DNA from: a virus
Direction: 5' to 3' (one strand)
IMG/VR virus record: IMGVR_UViG_3300025127_000276
Location: 1 to 24,100 of that record
Length of the DNA: 24,100 nucleotides
The notes beneath the pieces are model-generated. The model was not told where the DNA came from, made no database searches, and saw only the letters and a list, made by a program, of their open reading frames with translations. Below are positions 13,992 through 22,209 of this stretch, piece after piece. The first letter of the stretch is position 1; each line of letters starts with the position of its first letter. Both the position numbers and the translations under genes were made by a program.

Positions 13992-16163
13992 ATGAACATT
14001 ATAAAGTTTGGCAATAGTAAAAGAACTATGGATGCAAAGGAATTAGTTGAACTAATTAGTGAGAGAGTTCCTGCAAATGTTCAGATTAATTTATTAAAAG
14101 ACACTTATCCACAAGGGGTTGTTAGAGGAGATCAATTCACTATTGGTTCACTTGGTGGTGAGGCAGGCAAGTCTTTGAAAATAGATATTAATCCCAAATC
14201 CCCATACTTTATGAAAGGTCAAGACTTTAATGGTTCTGATGGTGTTGGAGGTATTGTTAAGATATTGATGGAGGGCAGAAATATGAAGTTGCCTGAAGTT
14301 AAAGAGTTCTTTGATGATTATTTGAGTGATGACGCACCAAGACCAGTTGAAAAGATTAGTTCTATTGTTGATCCAAACATACAACAAATAAATTTAAACA
14401 CACCATACGATAGCGAACATAAATATCTTAATGCACAAGGTGAGTTATTATGTCTCGTTCGTAGGTATAACACTAAAGATAATGATGGTAATCCAGTTCT
14501 TGATGGACATGGTAAGCCGAAGAAAGAATTTAGACAATTTACTGGTGGCAGTAATTATCCAAAGATGCCAGACGTTAGACCTTTGTACAACATACCGAAC
14601 ATTGTGGCATCAGAAAAGATAATATGGGTAGAGGGAGAGAAATGTGCAGATGCACTTAATGGGCTTGGTTATACTGCTACATGCACTATGGGTGGTGCGG
14701 GTATGCTTTCAAAGAAATCTGCAAATCTATTTGACTTTTCTCCGTTGCATGAGAAAGAACTGATAATATGGCCAGACAATGATAATGCAGGTCGTAAATT
14801 AGCAGAACTTGTCCAAGAACTTGCATTAAACGCTGGTGTTAAATCAGTTACTACACTTACACCACCAAGAGGTAAGCCAGAAAGATGGGATGTTGTTGAT
14901 GCAGTTGCAGAGCAATTTAATATAAATGAGTTTTTAAACACCAATGTTAAGCAAGTAAAAAAGAACATTAATCTTCTTGACGATAGTTTGTTAATAAACA
15001 GATTTGTTGGCGATGCACCAGTACAGAAGTTTCTAATAGCGAACACATTGCCATTAGCTGTGCCAATTATATTCTCTGCTGCAGGTGATAGTGGTAAAGG
15101 TATGATGACTCTTGATCTAGCCATGAAAGTATCAAGTGGTCAACCAATGTCAGAATCATTTGGTGGCACAATAAGTGAGTTTGGTAATTCAATTATATTT
15201 ACTGCTGAAGATGATGAGGCAGAGATGCACAGAAGAATAGAAAGACTTGATATAGACAACCAAAGATCAAGCTACGAGCATGAACTGCGAATCGTGAGTT
15301 TGCCTAATGTTGGTGGTGTATTTCCCATACTACAAGAAACACATGATGGCTACAGAACAAGTGATGAATTTGATAAACTTTACGAACAAATACTGCAAAT
15401 GAAAGATTTAAAACTTATAGTTTTTGATCCATTAGCATCTTTTGTTCACGCAGATGTTAATGCAGATCCAGCGGCGGGTGCAGCACTAACTGGATTACTT
15501 GCACAGATAGCTACAGAAACTGGTGCGTCAGTTATTATGTGTCATCACATGACAAAGATTAAAGAAGACACAGTTGTTAGTACGCCTGAACAAGCAAGAA
15601 ATATGATTAGAGGTACGTCAGCATTGGTTGATGGTGTTCGTTGTGCCTTTGCATTATGGCAAGTAGATGAGGCAACTGGCAGAAGACGTTGCCAAGATTT
15701 AGGCATAGATTATCAAAGAAATAAATGCTTTGATGGTGCAGTAGTAAAATCTAATGGTCCAGCAAACAGAAACATTAGGCATTTCATTAGAGATGAGTTT
15801 AGTGGATTGTTGTTAGATAGAAGTGATGATATTTCAAGATTACATACTGGCTCTAATAAAGAGATAAAAAAGAGTGCATTGTTTAATTGGATTGCAGATT
15901 GTGAAAGAGAGGGTAGGGCTATGACACAACAGTCTGGTGCAGACGCTATCTTACAACGTATGTCTGCTGATACAGATGCACCAAACGTGCTTAATAATTG
16001 CACACAACGTATGATTGATGGTCTTGTTAGAGAATTGATACAAGAGGGTAGAATCGCCAAGTATTCATTTAGCACAAGTGGTGGTCGTAAGTGGCTTGGC
16101 ACAATAGATGGCGATATGAGTAGAGGTGAATACGAGGCCACTACTGCGAGGGATAATGTATAA
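13992..16163 (+). CDS. Primase-helicase: Toprim plus RecA-like (RepA/AAA_25) ATPase
   Basis: 723 residues from ATG 13992, which lies 6 bases after GGGGG (13981-13985); earlier in-frame ATGs (13890, 13986) have poorer spacing or overlap the nuclease gene. The N-terminal part (about 1-130) has no zinc finger I can see. A Toprim domain follows, with the catalytic Glu in WVEGEKCADAL (Glu215) and PDNDNAG (Asp262, Asp264). A RecA-like ATPase domain begins near residue 345 with SAAGDSGKGMMTLDLA (atypical Walker A, Gly in place of Ser/Thr after Lys369), acidic EDDEAEMHRR, Walker B LIVFDPLASF (475-484), and MCHHMTK (516-522). The C-terminal 130 residues look like a winged-helix extension. It would prime and unwind DNA at the phage origin using a host polymerase. 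It overlaps the next gene by 8 bases. Confidence 0.85.
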   Translation: MNIIKFGNSKRTMDAKELVELISERVPANVQINLLKDTYPQGVVRGDQFTIGSLGGEAGKSLKIDINPKSPYFMKGQDFNGSDGVGGIVKILMEGRNMKLPEVKEFFDDYLSDDAPRPVEKISSIVDPNIQQINLNTPYDSEHKYLNAQGELLCLVRRYNTKDNDGNPVLDGHGKPKKEFRQFTGGSNYPKMPDVRPLYNIPNIVASEKIIWVEGEKCADALNGLGYTATCTMGGAGMLSKKSANLFDFSPLHEKELIIWPDNDNAGRKLAELVQELALNAGVKSVTTLTPPRGKPERWDVVDAVAEQFNINEFLNTNVKQVKKNINLLDDSLLINRFVGDAPVQKFLIANTLPLAVPIIFSAAGDSGKGMMTLDLAMKVSSGQPMSESFGGTISEFGNSIIFTAEDDEAEMHRRIERLDIDNQRSSYEHELRIVSLPNVGGVFPILQETHDGYRTSDEFDKLYEQILQMKDLKLIVFDPLASFVHADVNADPAAGAALTGLLAQIATETGASVIMCHHMTKIKEDTVVSTPEQARNMIRGTSALVDGVRCAFALWQVDEATGRRRCQDLGIDYQRNKCFDGAVVKSNGPANRNIRHFIRDEFSGLLLDRSDDISRLHTGSNKEIKKSALFNWIADCEREGRAMTQQSGADAILQRMSADTDAPNVLNNCTQRMIDGLVRELIQEGRIAKYSFSTSGGRKWLGTIDGDMSRGEYEATTARDNV

Positions 16164-16971
16164 ACTTCCAGACAATAATTGTGTAATTAGCTTTAGTGGT
16201 GGCAGAACTAGTGGCTTTATGTTGAAACAAATCATTGATAACAACAATGGTCTACCAGATAACGCAGTGGTTTGTTTTGCGAACACTGGCAGAGAGATGC
16301 CACAAACACTTGAGTTTATTAATGATTGTTCGCTCAACTGGGGAATGAAAATTGTCTGGTTAGAATATGATTTGAATGATGAGAACAAGCATATATTTAA
16401 AGTTGTAGACTATGAAACTGCCAGTAAGAGAGGCGAACCATTTGATAAATTAATAAATAAGCATCAGATGTTACCTAATCCATTAGCAAGATTCTGTACT
16501 GGTAGTTTGAAAAGAGACACTATAAGTAAATATTTAAGAAGTCTTGGTTGGAAGAGATGGCACAACATCATGGGCATAAGGTCGGATGAGAAGCATAGAT
16601 GCAAAGATGGTTTTCAAAATGGCTTCTATCCACACTATCCAATGGTTGAAGCTAATCACAGTTTGCGTGATGTAGATCACTTTTGGAGCGAACAATCTTT
16701 TAAACTTAACTTACCAGTTGTTAAAGGTAAAACCATCAAAGGTAATTGTGATTTGTGTTTTCTTAAATCTGAATCACAACTTGCATCTATGGTCAGAGAT
16801 CACCCAGACTTAGCTCAATGGTGGATCGATGCCGAACAAAGACTTAACAAAAGGTTTGAACGTAAGAGAAGCATGAAAGAGTTTGCTAAATTTGTTAATG
16901 CTCAACAAGATTGGATATTTAATAATGAGGCTTATCTTTGCCAACAAGATGGTGGGGAGTGTACAGGTTGA
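16156..16971 (+). CDS. PAPS reductase/DndC-like PP-loop protein
   Basis: 271 residues from ATG 16156 (GAGG 5-6 bases upstream); an in-frame ATG at 16126 lies further inside the primase gene. The PP-loop SFSGGRTSGFM (SGG-x-x-S at 14-19) marks an adenine-nucleotide alpha hydrolase that would adenylate or bind ATP/PAPS. CFANTGREMPQTLEFIND and PLARFCTGSLKRDTISKYL are family-typical. Cysteines at 114, 198, 201, 262 and 269 (FCTG, CDLC, LCQQDGGECTG) could hold a metal or Fe-S centre. Phage members are usually labelled PAPS reductase, but the Cys layout resembles nucleic-acid thiolation enzymes at least as much as assimilatory reductases. Its stop overlaps the TTG start of the cytosine methyltransferase, so a linked role in nucleic-acid modification is possible but unproven. 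Confidence 0.75.
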   Translation: MYKLPDNNCVISFSGGRTSGFMLKQIIDNNNGLPDNAVVCFANTGREMPQTLEFINDCSLNWGMKIVWLEYDLNDENKHIFKVVDYETASKRGEPFDKLINKHQMLPNPLARFCTGSLKRDTISKYLRSLGWKRWHNIMGIRSDEKHRCKDGFQNGFYPHYPMVEANHSLRDVDHFWSEQSFKLNLPVVKGKTIKGNCDLCFLKSESQLASMVRDHPDLAQWWIDAEQRLNKRFERKRSMKEFAKFVNAQQDWIFNNEAYLCQQDGGECTG

Positions 16972-18263
16972 AGATAGTAGATTTATTTAGTGGTATAGGT
17001 GGATTTAGTTATGCCGCCGAACAAATAGTAGGTGGCTTTGAGACAATAGCTTTTGTTGAACAAGATGAATATTGTCAAAAAGTCTTGCGTAAACATTGGC
17101 ACGATGTACCAATATATAGTGATATAAGGAGTTTTAATGCAAAAGAATACAAAGACGCAGACATCGTTGTTGGAGGATTCCCATGTCAACCCTGGTCGGT
17201 TGCAGGATCTCAAAGAGGCAGCGAAGATGACAGAGATCTCTGGCACGAAATGGTTAGGGTTATTGAAGACATACGGCCTAGATGGATCATTGGCGAAAAT
17301 GTGTCAGGCTTTGTTACAATGCCAATGGGTCTCAGAAGAAGTCTCGTTGACTTGGAAAGTATTGGGTACAAAGCCATACCATATCTTATTCCAGCTGCAG
17401 CCGTCGATGCCAAACATAGACGAATGCGATGCTGGATTGTGGGCTACTCCGAACACGATGGATCATCTACCACCACGTTCAGAGGAGGGAACAACCAAGT
17501 TAATGGAAGGTCAACGCAAGGGCAGAACCAAACCAGCGAACTTGAGGGAGCAAGTAGACGAACAGACAATGAGTTTGTACAAACAGACATCTTCGACCTT
17601 ATGGCCAACACCGACAACACAAGAGATAGAACACCCACAAGCGGATTTGACACCGAACAACAGACGTTTGAGCAAGGACGGGCAGACATCTCACAGTTTG
17701 AACCTAGCGGACAGCGTGAAGATGTATCCAACACCGAGAGCAAGGGATTGGAAAGACGGATACACAGTACCGCCGTCAGTTCAAAAGGGAACGAGAGCAC
17801 ACACTTTGGGAACATTTGTAGCAGAGAAAGAATCAATGTGGCCGACACCGACAACAAAGGGGTACGGACATGCATCAATGGGTCAGACGATGATCTTCCG
17901 AAAGAAGGTGGAGAGGGGAGAGTTGACCGAACAACAAGCACAACAGATGCTAGGTTGCACACTAAGACCACCAAGAATGGAGAAATGGGATTATCCCAAA
18001 AAGGAGATGTTCCCTACGCCATCGGCAAACGAAGATGCAGCGGGTCGACCAGGGGGGAAGATGCAAAAGATGTTAGGCAACCATCCTTCCGTGAGAGACC
18101 AGTCCTCTGGAACGCTGAACCCAACGTGGGTAGAGTGGCTAATGGGGTATCCAACAGGGTACACCGACTTAGATGTTTAGGGAATAGTATCGTTCCACAA
18201 GTGGTAGCTAGAATATTTTATGCGATAAAGGAGGCGGATAAAACTGATGAAAAAATACGATAG
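16968..18263 (+). CDS. DNA (cytosine-5) methyltransferase, Dcm family
   Basis: 431 residues if started at TTG 16968, which overlaps the upstream TGA and follows GGGGAG by 8 bases, giving MKIVDLFSGIGG; GTG 16959 and TTG 16938 are in-frame alternatives and there is no ATG nearby. Motif I DLFSGIGGFS, motif IV GGFPCQPWS (catalytic Cys73), motif VI IIGENV (Glu110) and motif VIII KHRRMRCWIVG are intact, and motif X LGNSIVPQVVARI lies near residues 404-416. It transfers a methyl group from S-adenosylmethionine to C5 of cytosine. Between motifs VIII and X (about residues 165-390), where the target-recognition domain belongs, the sequence is polar and low in hydrophobics, with recurring ANTDN, SNTES and ADTDN units. 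The same DNA is read in the +1 frame as another long protein (17137-18180). This interior is visibly more G+C rich than the flanks. No restriction enzyme is adjacent. Confidence 0.88.
   Translation: MKIVDLFSGIGGFSYAAEQIVGGFETIAFVEQDEYCQKVLRKHWHDVPIYSDIRSFNAKEYKDADIVVGGFPCQPWSVAGSQRGSEDDRDLWHEMVRVIEDIRPRWIIGENVSGFVTMPMGLRRSLVDLESIGYKAIPYLIPAAAVDAKHRRMRCWIVGYSEHDGSSTTTFRGGNNQVNGRSTQGQNQTSELEGASRRTDNEFVQTDIFDLMANTDNTRDRTPTSGFDTEQQTFEQGRADISQFEPSGQREDVSNTESKGLERRIHSTAVSSKGNESTHFGNICSRERINVADTDNKGVRTCINGSDDDLPKEGGEGRVDRTTSTTDARLHTKTTKNGEMGLSQKGDVPYAIGKRRCSGSTRGEDAKDVRQPSFRERPVLWNAEPNVGRVANGVSNRVHRLRCLGNSIVPQVVARIFYAIKEADKTDEKIR
17137..18180 (+). CDS. Nested overlapping gene inside the cytosine methyltransferase
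   Basis: 347 residues in the +1 frame, wholly inside the methyltransferase gene. ATG 17137 is preceded by AAGGAG (17126-17131) at a 5-base spacing, a better ribosome binding site than that of the host gene. The translation has normal protein composition with many Trp and hydrophobics: SGTKWLGLLKTYGLDGSLAK, then SLTWKVLGTKPYHILFQLQ. Five repeats of (L/M)(W/Y/F)(P/A)TP follow at residues 101-105, 155-159, 196-200, 234-238 and 291-295, ending in LNPTWVEWLMGYPTGYTDL. I recall proteins of this pattern (W-P-T-P...R-D-W-K; LNP..VEWLMG.P.GWT.L) as hypothetical proteins in many phages and bacteria, from memory only. Function unknown; it could be a partner or target-recognition subunit of the methyltransferase. 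I judge it a real dual-coded gene rather than a shadow. Confidence 0.65.
   Translation: MQKNTKTQTSLLEDSHVNPGRLQDLKEAAKMTEISGTKWLGLLKTYGLDGSLAKMCQALLQCQWVSEEVSLTWKVLGTKPYHILFQLQPSMPNIDECDAGLWATPNTMDHLPPRSEEGTTKLMEGQRKGRTKPANLREQVDEQTMSLYKQTSSTLWPTPTTQEIEHPQADLTPNNRRLSKDGQTSHSLNLADSVKMYPTPRARDWKDGYTVPPSVQKGTRAHTLGTFVAEKESMWPTPTTKGYGHASMGQTMIFRKKVERGELTEQQAQQMLGCTLRPPRMEKWDYPKKEMFPTPSANEDAAGRPGGKMQKMLGNHPSVRDQSSGTLNPTWVEWLMGYPTGYTDLDV
17438..18036 (+). repeat. Five degenerate dual-coding repeats in the methyltransferase gene
   Basis: Units of about 27-30 bp with the core ATGTGGCCNACNCCNACN occur at 17438 (degenerate, beginning TTGTGGGC), 17601, 17722, 17836 and 18007. In the methyltransferase frame they read GYSEHDG, ANTDNTRDR, SNTESKGLERR, ADTDNKGVR and PYAIGKRR. 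In the +1 frame they read LWATP, LWPTP, MYPTP, MWPTP and MFPTP followed by polar residues. Spacing is irregular (163, 121, 114 and 171 bp), so this is a dispersed motif rather than a tandem array. Confidence 0.6.
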
Positions 18264-18695: not shown

Positions 18696-20000
18696 ATGTC
18701 AAAGTTTGAAAAATTTGTAAAAGATGAGTTTGTTAATAAACCATTAATGGCAAGTGAAATCATTGGTGCTATGTCGCAACCAAAGAGAACCATCATGGGT
18801 TATCATCAACATTCTTATGCCGAGGCGGCAATCAGAAAATTACAAGTTAAACTGGTTAATGCACAGAAGTTTGTTATCAGTAATGATCTCATTGATCATG
18901 CCATCGAGGCATCATTATCAAGACCATTTGTTTTGAATGAAATGATTAAGGGTGCTATCCCACCATTTAAAAATATGTTTATTGAGTGGGATGAACATTA
19001 TCGTGTCTATGCAATGACTAAATTGTATCATAAGCATTTACCTCAATATAAAGATAGGATTGAACCGCCTAAAGATTACATGGATCGCCTTGGCTATCAT
19101 ATCCATCAAAGAGATACTGATCCCAATGGTAGTTTAACTTTTGGCGATAAAATCACTACTTATGAAATGTGGTGTTTGTTGCCTAAACAAGATGGAGAAA
19201 AAGAAGGTAAATGGATTATGTCTCCCATGTCAAATACTATCATCAATGATGAGTATTGTAGCCATGATCGTATGTACCAACATTTTTTAAACACCATTGT
19301 AAAAGAAAATACTTTTGGTGATGAATACATTAAACCTAGATTGGATAAAAATTTTTGGATTAAAGAGCAAGTAAATGAAGCAGTTAAATTAGTTGGGCAT
19401 CCTTACGTTTTAAAATATTTTGGTGAGTATGATGATAATAGAGATTATTGGAAAGCCACTTCAGTTGATGGCAATGTAGAAGATTATAAAGTAATGAACG
19501 AAGTTTATTCACGATTAAATACCACTCATTCAAGCAGTATGGATTGGATTGCTGGCAAAGATGAAGTTAAAAATGGTTATGTTCAACAAACAATGTCAGA
19601 TATTGCAAGGACACATTTAGCTTTATTGCAAGGTGGAGATATGAGATTTATTGTTAGTGTCCTATCATTGCTTAATTATGATCTTATTGTTCAACAAAAA
19701 CAACAACCTGCAAAGAATAAAATTACACACGTTAGATATGGAAAACGTGTACCACTTAATGAATATAATCTTATCAATATTGATTTGCCAAAGCCTAAAG
19801 GCAGAGTTGTATATGAAAAGATTTTTACTGGTCATGGAACGCCAAAGAGATGGCACATGAGAAGAGGTCATTGGAGACGATATCGTGATGCAAAAGGTAA
19901 TATCACGAAAAGAGTTTGGATTGACCAATGTGAGGCTGGCAGTAAAGAGCTAGGCTCTAAAATTAACGACTATAACTTACAAAAAGCAAAAGGAGAGTAG
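18696..20000 (+). CDS. Unknown protein with C-terminal RRGHWRR motif
   Basis: 434 residues with its own promoter, AGGAA 7 bases upstream of the ATG. The protein is rich in Lys, Tyr, His and Asp, has no transmembrane segment and no standard enzymatic motif. The C-terminal region WHMRRGHWRRYRDAKGNITK followed by RVWI resembles a short module (R-G-H-W-R...G-K...W-V) found at the end of many phage and plasmid proteins of unknown function. The middle has aromatic-rich segments such as IIGAMSQPKRTIMGYHQHSY near residue 22. A separately promoted gene behind a terminator suggests an early or host-takeover role, but this is speculation. Base composition does not differ obviously from its neighbours. 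Confidence 0.6.
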   Translation: MSKFEKFVKDEFVNKPLMASEIIGAMSQPKRTIMGYHQHSYAEAAIRKLQVKLVNAQKFVISNDLIDHAIEASLSRPFVLNEMIKGAIPPFKNMFIEWDEHYRVYAMTKLYHKHLPQYKDRIEPPKDYMDRLGYHIHQRDTDPNGSLTFGDKITTYEMWCLLPKQDGEKEGKWIMSPMSNTIINDEYCSHDRMYQHFLNTIVKENTFGDEYIKPRLDKNFWIKEQVNEAVKLVGHPYVLKYFGEYDDNRDYWKATSVDGNVEDYKVMNEVYSRLNTTHSSSMDWIAGKDEVKNGYVQQTMSDIARTHLALLQGGDMRFIVSVLSLLNYDLIVQQKQQPAKNKITHVRYGKRVPLNEYNLINIDLPKPKGRVVYEKIFTGHGTPKRWHMRRGHWRRYRDAKGNITKRVWIDQCEAGSKELGSKINDYNLQKAKGE

Positions 20001-20511: not shown

Positions 20512-20837
20512 TGTTGGTAGTCATAGAATCGCCCTATAAGGGCAAAGTTAAACAAAATGTAGCTTATGCACAAAAGTGCATGAGCGATTCTCTTTTGCGA
20601 GGTGAATGTCCATTTGCCTCGCATTTACTTTATACACAAGTGTTAGATGATACAGTTCCTGAATTAAGAAGTATGGGAATGTCAAGAGCATTTGAATGGT
20701 ATCGCCACGCAGATCTCATGGCAGTTTACATAGATAAAGGAATATCAAATGGCATGAAAATGGGCATGGAAGTAGCGGAAAAGCTCGGAATAGAAATAGT
20801 TTATAGGACATTAGATGGAAATAATAATAGAAGGTAG
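20511..20837 (+). CDS. DUF7768/DUF4406-like nucleoside-deoxyribosyltransferase-fold protein
   Basis: 108 residues from ATG 20511, which overlaps the previous TGA (TGATG); an in-frame TTG at 20493 is rejected. The patterns VVIESPYKGKVKQNVAYAQK, CMSDSLLRGECPFASHLLYT, QVLDD..PE...MGMS.AFEW and DLMAVYIDKGISNGMKMGME are typical of a phage family with the nucleoside 2-deoxyribosyltransferase-like fold (IESPY...N..YA..C..D.L.RGE.P.ASHL.YTQ...D.GIS.GM..G). The family may act on nucleotides or nucleosides, but substrate and activity are not visible from sequence. Its neighbour, the adenine/cytosine methyltransferase, starts 23 bases before its end. Confidence 0.65.
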   Translation: MLVVIESPYKGKVKQNVAYAQKCMSDSLLRGECPFASHLLYTQVLDDTVPELRSMGMSRAFEWYRHADLMAVYIDKGISNGMKMGMEVAEKLGIEIVYRTLDGNNNRR

Positions 20838-22209
20838 CACAGTTTACAATGGCGACTGCTTAGAAGTCATGGAGAAAATAGATAAGTGTTCGGTTGATAG
20901 CGTGGTAACTGATCCGCCGTATCACCTAACATCTATTGTTCAGAGGTTCGGTAAAGAAGATTCAGCACCAGCTCAGTTCGGTACAGATGGAGCATTTGCC
21001 AGAGCGTCAAAAGGTTTTATGGGTAAAGAGTGGGATGGTGGCGACATAGCTTTCCAAGCGAACACATGGCGTAAATGTTATGAGTTGTTGAAGCCTGGAG
21101 GTCATTTGATAGCGTTTAGTGGATCACGAACATACCATAGAATGGCAGTTGCCATAGAAGACGCTGGATTTGAAATTAGAGATCAATGTATTTGGTTGTA
21201 TGGTAGTGGGTTTCCTAAAAGCCACAATATAGGCAAAGAAGTTGATAAGAAAATGGGTAATCAGCGTGAAGTTGTTGAAACGAACAATAGAATAGCTACT
21301 AGCTTGGGTAATGGTCTTAACATGGATGGTGGTATAGCTAATAAAGATTACAAATATACGCAAGGCAATTCAGAATGGGAAGGTTGGGGTACTGCGTTGA
21401 AACCTGCACATGAACCTATGGTGTTAGCAAGAAAGCCTTTGTCGGAGAAGTCGGTGGCAGACAACGTAATGAAGCATGGAACTGGTGCGATAAATATTGA
21501 TGAGTGTCGGATACAAGGCGAGGTCAAGCACCCAAACACAATGCCAGACTTCCGTGATCAAGGCGAACAAAGTAAGGCTGCAATCGGTGTTGATAAGCTA
21601 TCATTTGGTCAAACATCTAACGCAAAGCGTAAAAAAGTTGTTCGTAAGGCTCGGACAGCAGATGGCGTGTGGACTGATGATAATAGTGGCATGAAGTCGG
21701 AGGGTTCGGAGTTTGCAGATGCAGATCCAAGAGGGCGTTGGCCGAGCAATATTATGCACGATGGCAGCGAACAAGTGCAGCAAATCTTTCCAACAACGAG
21801 CAGCACGGAGGTCAGCAGACAGCGAACACACAAGGGGATTTGGACTGCTGGTGAGCTTGCTGATACCGAACAATTCATGCCAGCTTATGGGGATCATGGC
21901 AACGCTTCTCGGTATTTCTACTGTGCAAAGACATCAAAAGATGAGCGTAAGTCAGGACTGGGAGGTGAAATTAAAGCGAACACTCACCCAACAGTTAAAC
22001 CAGTTGAGCTGATGCGATACCTTGTTCGCTTGGTTACGCCCAAAGGAGGACTGGTGCTCGATCCGTTTATGGGTAGTGGATCAACTGGCATGGGTGCAAG
22101 AGAAGAAGATTTTAGATTCATTGGCATAGAAAAAGAAGAAGAATACTACGAAATCGCCAAGGCAAGGATAAAAAACGTAAAACCCCAGTTAAAATTGTTT
22201 GACATATAG
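20815..22209 (+). CDS. DNA N6-adenine/N4-cytosine methyltransferase, beta-type order
   Basis: 464 residues. The catalytic motif IV VTDPPYHLT (DPPY at 33-36) comes first, and the S-adenosylmethionine site LDPFMGSGSTGMGA (about 415-428) is at the C-terminus after THPTVKPVELMRYLVRL; this IV-then-I order defines the beta class. Between them lie GGHLIAFSGSRTYHRMAVAI, WGTALKPAHEPMVLARKPL, GRWPSNIMHDGS and SRYFYCAKTS, the large family insert of phage enzymes that probably reads the target. It methylates an exocyclic amino group of adenine or cytosine; DPPY allows N6-adenine and does not exclude N4-cytosine. No restriction enzyme is beside it. The last bases contain the -35 box of the following promoter. 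Confidence 0.9.
   Translation: MEIIIEGSTVYNGDCLEVMEKIDKCSVDSVVTDPPYHLTSIVQRFGKEDSAPAQFGTDGAFARASKGFMGKEWDGGDIAFQANTWRKCYELLKPGGHLIAFSGSRTYHRMAVAIEDAGFEIRDQCIWLYGSGFPKSHNIGKEVDKKMGNQREVVETNNRIATSLGNGLNMDGGIANKDYKYTQGNSEWEGWGTALKPAHEPMVLARKPLSEKSVADNVMKHGTGAINIDECRIQGEVKHPNTMPDFRDQGEQSKAAIGVDKLSFGQTSNAKRKKVVRKARTADGVWTDDNSGMKSEGSEFADADPRGRWPSNIMHDGSEQVQQIFPTTSSTEVSRQRTHKGIWTAGELADTEQFMPAYGDHGNASRYFYCAKTSKDERKSGLGGEIKANTHPTVKPVELMRYLVRLVTPKGGLVLDPFMGSGSTGMGAREEDFRFIGIEKEEEYYEIAKARIKNVKPQLKLFDI

Follow-up and report, generated by a model that had tools for sequence, protein, structure and literature searches.

The subject of this analysis is a C5-cytosine DNA methyltransferase gene that contains a second long open reading frame (ORF) in the +1 frame. 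The gene lies in the IMG/VR virus record IMGVR_UViG_3300025127_000276, of which positions 1 to 24,100 were analysed. This whole stretch of 24,100 nucleotides, a phage contig, is called the window, and the record is identical to IMGVR_UViG_3300030380_000065. As stated by the first-pass annotation, which was made from the letters alone, the outer frame is open from TTG16968 to position 18263 and runs through to motif X. Its product, the alpha chain, is matched across its full length by PF00145 (E 5.7e-46) and also matches TIGR00675 (E 1.1e-41) and phrog_363. The C5 methyltransferase motifs I, IV (with the catalytic Pro-Cys), VI, VIII and X are all present in alpha, and motif X contains LRCLGNSIVPQ (Table 1). 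However, motif IX was absent when the PF00145 motifs of the outer-frame protein were checked, and it appears in the product of the nested frame, the beta chain. The nested ORF could also be confirmed: 347 codons are open from ATG17137 to TAG18180 and AAGGAG stands 5 nucleotides before the start. Residues 9-345 of the nested protein match the phrog_1008 profile (E 2.2e-26). Judged by the evidence described below, the nested ORF is a real gene, and the two frames very probably encode one C5-cytosine DNA methyltransferase as two polypeptides.

Table 1. Features of the overlapping methyltransferase genes in the window
Feature	Positions	Strand	Description or basis
Alpha chain (outer frame)	16968..18263	+	431 amino acids, TTG start; motifs I-VIII, linker, motif X
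Alpha motif I (DLFSGIGGF)	16980..17006	+	Translation
Shine-Dalgarno AAGGAG of nested gene	17126..17131	+	5 nucleotides upstream of ATG17137; sequence
Beta chain (nested, +1 frame)	17137..18180	+	347 amino acids; phrog_1008, conserved nested ORF, codon-position reversal
Alpha motif IV, catalytic Pro-Cys (FPCQPWSVAG)	17178..17207	+	Translation
Alpha motif VI (GENV)	17292..17303	+	Translation
Alpha motif VIII (KHRRMRCWIVG)	17412..17444	+	Translation
Beta cassette 1 (WATPNTMDHLPPRS...)	17440..17601	+	Unit family 1, 103 loci
Alpha linker (beta cassettes read in outer frame; open, weakly constrained)	17445..18167	+	Codon-position and stop-shuffling tests
Beta cassette 2 (WPTPTTQEIEHPQADL...)	17602..17724	+	Unit family 3, 41 loci
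Beta cassette 3 (YPTPRARDWKDG...)	17725..17838	+	Unit family 0, 156 loci
Beta cassette 4 (WPTPTTKGYGHASMG...)	17839..18009	+	Unit family 7, 23 loci
Beta cassette 5 (FPTPSANEDAAGRPG...)	18010..18114	+	Unit family 9, 17 loci
Putative motif IX in beta (LNPTWVEWLMGYPTGYT)	18115..18165	+	Beta residues 327-343; L209 block alignment
Alpha motif X (LRCLGNSIVPQVV)	18168..18206	+	Translation; present in alpha of nested loci

The overlap has been traced through several collections of sequences. Among phages, tblastn searches yielded 56 records with the nested protein and 140 records with a shorter homologue. The first six phage records inspected, which include Paenibacillus, Lacticaseibacillus, C75C1, C72C1 and a gut phage, each have an intact methyltransferase gene with the homologue inside it in the same +1 frame. 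In the case of the Paenibacillus phage Leyra, both overlapping genes are annotated (gp61/gp62). A scan of viral contigs with the nested family revealed at least 563 relatives, of which the best 80 were taken, and a scan of genome contigs revealed 224 relatives, of which again the best 80 were taken. The titles of the genome contigs name Firmicutes, Bacteroidetes, Proteobacteria, Spirochaetes, Planctomycetes, Verrucomicrobia, Acidobacteria and others. Moreover, a scan of viral contigs with the outer protein, a query that does not favour the nested frame, gave 54 loci and the nested ORF is present in all of them, as far as the contigs extend; homologues with stop codons throughout the +1 frame were thus not found among these loci. 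The loci, numbered with the prefix L, were chosen by similarity and include several redundant ones; only unique sequences and non-overlapping pairs entered the selection tests. A nested +1 ORF was present in 137 of the first 140 loci, and a nested or split +1 arrangement in 227 of 230. Of the other three, L212 is a single chain, L160 has a displaced copy and L036 a tandem duplication. A motif-based classification of 310 loci from phages, plasmids and genomes gave 246 nested, nine split and three single-chain cases, the remaining loci being mostly truncated by contig ends or beyond the strict motif patterns. Inspection of 13 loci that the strict pattern had flagged as lacking motif IX uncovered a +1 ORF in all and an IX-like end in 12. 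As a control, conventional methyltransferases of the same host genomes were considered: these have motif IX in frame (e.g. RALTSRERARLQTFPDNY), and no nested ORF of more than 65 amino acids was found in them.

Evidence that both frames are used comes from the codon positions at which related loci differ. For this test, 46 independent pairs of related loci were compared and positions were counted in the outer frame. The differences at positions 1/2/3 amount to 161/86/513 before the nested ORF and to 99/63/328 after it, which is the usual wobble pattern in the outer frame, and to 2101/1202/1286 in the region of motifs VIII-IX. The reversal is visible in 36 of the 44 informative pairs. Among the closest relatives the recognition region gave 984/414/296, and the pair L091 and L107 gave 61/12/2. 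Since outer position 1 is nested position 3, the wobble has shifted to the nested frame between motifs VIII and IX. In the recognition region, outer position 1 changes at 0.30 per codon, as compared to 0.25-0.33 at synonymous sites elsewhere; the outer amino acids are thus nearly unconstrained there. The analysis of stop codons points to selection in the outer frame as well. In 152 loci, no outer-frame stop was seen when 814.5 were expected from synonymous shuffling of the nested codons, and synonymous shuffling likewise predicted 340.3 nested-frame stops, of which none was seen, whereas the third frame contains 1671 stops versus 1543.4 expected. The window alone gave the same picture: shuffling of the outer codons in the recognition region predicts 3.5 nested stops and shuffling of the nested codons 5.5 outer stops (p=0.001), with none seen in either frame, and the third frame shows no depletion (17 stops seen versus 11.8 expected). 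The first-pass annotation had proposed dual coding selection in this region. By these two tests selection indeed acts on both frames, though not to the same extent: in the stretch from motif VIII to motif IX the amino acids are selected in the nested frame, and hence in the recognition region of beta, and in the outer frame it is chiefly stops that are excluded.

Natural rearrangements of the genes indicate which part of a methyltransferase beta corresponds to. In the split loci L037, L066, L079 (= L152, L286), L146, L233, L238 and L300, the outer ORF ends right after motif VIII and the +1 ORF spans the recognition cassettes, an LNPxWVEWLMGxPxGWT block and motif X. The split also exists as two annotated genes in the Mycobacterium phage Iracema64 (gp79/gp78) and in the Streptomyces phage Vash (gp32/gp33). 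All parts are found in a single chain in L212, a Pelosinus contig, and in L230. In L209, a LNPDWVEWLMGFPVGWT block stands in the outer frame immediately before motif X. The 66-amino-acid tail of this locus aligns without gaps to positions 277-323 of PF00145 (E 5.7e-4) and matches TIGR00675 (E 0.01), but neither PF00145 nor TIGR00675 is matched when the LNPDWVEWLMGFPVGWT block is removed. Because the tail matches only with the block, the block can be equated with motif IX, and the cassettes come to lie at the position of the target-recognition domain. By this alignment, motif IX lies in beta. The Pfam score of an artificial chimera of alpha, beta and motif X was uninformative (156.7 bits, versus 157.9 bits for alpha alone).

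Within beta, the recognition region is built from (W/Y/F/L)-x-T-P units in series, usually two to six of them and five in the window. The first-pass annotation had called the nested protein rich in tryptophan and the interior of the outer frame polar and repeat-like. Both descriptions hold, but the tryptophans are due to the repeated (W/Y/F)-x-T-P units and the outer repeats can be explained as the out-of-frame shadow of the beta units; for instance, TGGCCAACACCGACA reads WPTPT in the beta frame and ..ANTD in the alpha frame. A comparison of 790 units from 223 beta chains revealed that unit families recur across distant loci. The 'WATPNTMDHLP' unit is present in 103 loci and another unit family in 156, the families having been formed by single-linkage, so that the broadest one may be over-merged. 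The order of the units is 1-3-0-7-9 in L088, whose alpha is 92% identical to that of the window, 1-7-0 in L115, 1-3-2-7-0-9 in L100 and 1-0-3-2-0-7-9 in L092. The varying order among close relatives suggests that recognition modules are exchanged by recombination, and a working hypothesis is that there is one cassette per target.

Several loci show further variants of beta. In L027 (2959-4764), beta runs beyond motif IX and has several further W-P-T-P units before the stop. In L029, the nested pair is closely followed by an additional partial beta (2120-2350) with one cassette and motif IX, which is possibly a stored or remnant cassette. In L036 (133-1952), the nested alpha/beta pair is tandemly duplicated and the second alpha is devoid of the N-terminal motifs. 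In L160 (2567-4223), the part of beta with the cassettes and motif IX is located downstream of alpha and a nested N-terminal piece remains.

For the enzyme as a whole, the following mechanism can be proposed. Alpha and beta would be translated separately from one mRNA, with beta starting at ATG17137 under the control of its own Shine-Dalgarno sequence. Alpha is predicted to fold as the catalytic large domain, which comprises motifs I-VIII for S-adenosylmethionine (AdoMet) binding, the Pro-Cys nucleophile and base flipping, together with a C-terminal motif X helix that would be joined to them by a disordered linker. Beta would provide the small domain, consisting of the target-recognition region with its W-P-T-P cassettes and motif IX, and may dock on alpha to form the active enzyme. 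Most likely, the phage would use this enzyme to methylate its own DNA against restriction by the host. Phage methyltransferases usually serve to protect the phage DNA from restriction. Of the functions that the first-pass annotation had suggested for the nested protein, the supply of target recognition is the best-supported reading, given the pattern of selection and the split and single-chain relatives, and beta probably supplies motif IX in addition.

A different way to use both frames would be programmed frameshifting, in which ribosomes leave the outer frame for the +1 frame once motif VIII has been translated and thereby make one fused polypeptide comprising motifs I-VIII, the recognition region and motif IX. 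Indeed, L212 and L230 are natural single chains with this order. However, the beta frame has a conserved putative translation start of its own. A Shine-Dalgarno sequence and a start codon head the nested frame in 126 of 140 loci, as compared to two in frame 0 and 60 in frame +2 when the same criteria are applied. A strong Shine-Dalgarno sequence with an ATG within 60 nucleotides is present in 59 of 99 unique loci, whereas 11.1 (standard deviation about 3) are expected from shuffling that preserves the outer protein. The conservation of these signals beyond chance favours independent initiation over frameshifting. Moreover, the outer frame stays open up to motif X in the nested loci, which would be needless under a shift, and in the split loci it is beta that has motif X, with alpha stopping just past motif VIII. 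Weighed on these grounds, and with no search made for a conserved slippery site, frameshifting is an improbable explanation.

It could also be argued that the outer frame is a complete conventional methyltransferase, including a recognition domain, and that the overprinted gene encodes an unrelated protein such as an inhibitor, an anti-restriction protein or a partner. PF00145 does match the outer frame end to end, and accessory functions are common among overprinted viral genes. For the inhibitor, which the first-pass annotation had also considered, the analysis produced no evidence. The outer frame as a complete enzyme was rejected, since it lacks motif IX and its interior, including the recognition region, is almost free of amino-acid constraint. 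In addition, the C-terminal block of beta corresponds to motif IX, and the split and single-chain relatives have the beta segment and motif X in one frame. An unrelated overprinted gene is thus very improbable. Even less credible is a shadow ORF, i.e. a +1 frame that is open as a by-product of a conserved outer sequence and codon bias. This may in part be true for the stretch of motifs IV-VIII, where a +1 ORF of about 140 amino acids is also seen in the conventional methyltransferases of the Streptococcus phages MM1 and 5093. In the recognition region, however, the outer sequence is the variable one, the substitutions are concentrated at outer first positions rather than at the third positions that a shadow predicts, some 340 expected nested stops are missing and the beta cassettes recur across distant loci. 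Finally, an error of sequencing or assembly that shifted the frame, or the decay of a pseudogene, is practically negligible because the same architecture is conserved in more than 200 independent contigs and phage isolates and both frames are under purifying selection; the first-pass annotation had likewise seen no need for a sequencing frameshift.

The assignment of the small domain to beta has also to be weighed against several further observations. AlphaFold modelling of the single-chain L230 with a mixed alpha/beta alignment gave a mean predicted local distance difference test (pLDDT) score of 65.6 and a predicted template modelling (pTM) score of 0.64. The catalytic domain, whose fold matches M.HhaI and M.HaeIII, and the motif X helix are confident, but most of the recognition region lies below a pLDDT of 50. 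A second run, with additional beta rows in the alignment, was poorer overall, and the models thus speak neither for nor against the fold of beta. Beta is recognised neither by Pfam nor by NCBIfam, and profile searches found no relative in the PDB. A profile of motifs IX-X gave no significant match to distant conventional methyltransferases, and the assignment of motif IX therefore rests on L209, on position and on motif resemblance. Furthermore, the N-terminal part of beta, about 100 amino acids, overlaps motifs IV-VIII of alpha, a stretch over which conventional streptococcal methyltransferases also show a +1 ORF, and the similarity of this part may be partly a shadow of alpha. The outer third positions in this overlap are slowed (0.153 versus 0.25-0.33), which suggests, short of proof, that beta is constrained there.

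The surroundings of the gene pair are as follows. Directly upstream, at 16126-16971, lies a gene for a protein resembling 3'-phosphoadenosine-5'-phosphosulfate (PAPS) reductase, whose stop overlaps the TTG start of the methyltransferase; a PAPS-reductase-like gene near the nested pair is also present in C72C1 (L005), the Klebsiella phage Seifer (L225) and the Bacteroides phage BS-TP4 (L328). A 434-amino-acid ORF at 18696-20000 has no match in Pfam or PHROG. A second DNA methyltransferase gene (N6_N4_Mtase, PF01555) at 20815-22209 has a long insert between its two conserved halves.

It is an even call whether these genes stand for a large, largely unrecognised class in which the recognition subunit is overprinted in the gene of the catalytic subunit as a reshufflable string of independent cassettes; enzymes of such a class would probably have several targets each. 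If this is true, recombination must hold two frames open while only one has meaning. Apart from this wider reading, naturally split C5 methyltransferases turn from a curiosity into a widespread arrangement, with hundreds of cases in phages and prophages and with plasmids and genome contigs of many phyla among the loci, and the overlap ranks among the clearest long same-strand overlaps in DNA phages in which amino-acid selection switches frame inside one gene. The arrangement also explains phage annotations with two overlapping 'methyltransferases' or with the second gene omitted. The nested beta is unannotated in the Mycobacterium phage Zerg (L327, 1501-2214) and in BS-TP4 (L328, 1471-2793), where it is hidden by overlap-averse gene calling. 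Gene callers that forbid overlaps miss the putative specificity subunit, and target prediction from the outer frame would then be meaningless.

In the open-access literature, no description of a cassette-bearing nested subunit was found; subscription papers and REBASE lay outside this search. Homologous or equivalent beta chains are among the known phage proteins, namely the 'Mte8-like protein' of a K1H phage, Leyra gp62 and Iracema64 gp78. The window's beta matches phrog_1008, which is labelled 'DNA methyltransferase', and proteins of this type are annotated as methyltransferase or unknown, but they are devoid of catalytic motifs and look like specificity subunits. The multispecific phage C5 methyltransferases of the SPbeta, phi3T, rho11s and H2 type carry serial recognition modules of about 40 amino acids between motifs VIII and IX. 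Judged by description, their modules recall the putative recognition modules of beta, which may be exchanged by recombination in a like manner, but these enzymes consist of a single chain in a single frame. Overlapping C5 methyltransferases have been reported in Streptococcus phages (PMC5601072). In the phages MM1 and 5093, a C5 methyltransferase gene likewise contains another ORF in its +1 frame. However, their outer frame encodes a complete enzyme that includes motif IX (KLTPRECWRLQGFPDW), and the nested ORF stops before the recognition region; this is thus a different system from that of the window. In phage 5093 (L322, L324), the anti-CRISPR AcrIIA6 is annotated alongside the conventional C5 methyltransferase. 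Another ORF hidden in a different frame of a phage methylase gene is the ShiLan domain, an out-of-frame HNH endonuclease (PMC11855218). There, too, the host frame is open, but the ShiLan domain is a mobile insertion that encodes a nuclease and not a part of the enzyme itself.

Among the natural two-polypeptide C5 enzymes, M.AquI consists of a catalytic chain and a chain with the recognition part and motifs IX and X (PMC3404938). This division resembles that of the split relatives L037, L066, Iracema64 and Vash. In contrast to the window, where the genes are nested and motif X is in the outer chain, part of the variable region of M.AquI is in the large subunit. Moreover, monomeric C5 enzymes that have been cut into fragments reassemble (PMC3404938; PMC5944983). 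The existence of two-polypeptide enzymes and of fragment reassembly makes an assembly of alpha and beta plausible. The closest precedent, judged by its published description rather than by sequence, is M.EcoHK31I, which has in common with the window a large chain with motifs I-VIII and X and a small chain with motif IX. M.EcoHK31I recognises YGGCCR, its small-chain gene lies inside the large-chain gene in another frame, and M.EaeI is a two-polypeptide C5 methyltransferase of the same kind. For M.EcoHK31I, a natural two-polypeptide enzyme, the recognition domain has been predicted in the large chain and only motif IX in the small one (PMC3404938). In the window, by contrast, selection on the recognition region appears in the nested multi-cassette chain, and the two are therefore not classed as the same type of enzyme. 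If our interpretation is true, the predicted placement of the M.EcoHK31I recognition domain in the large chain may need to be revisited.

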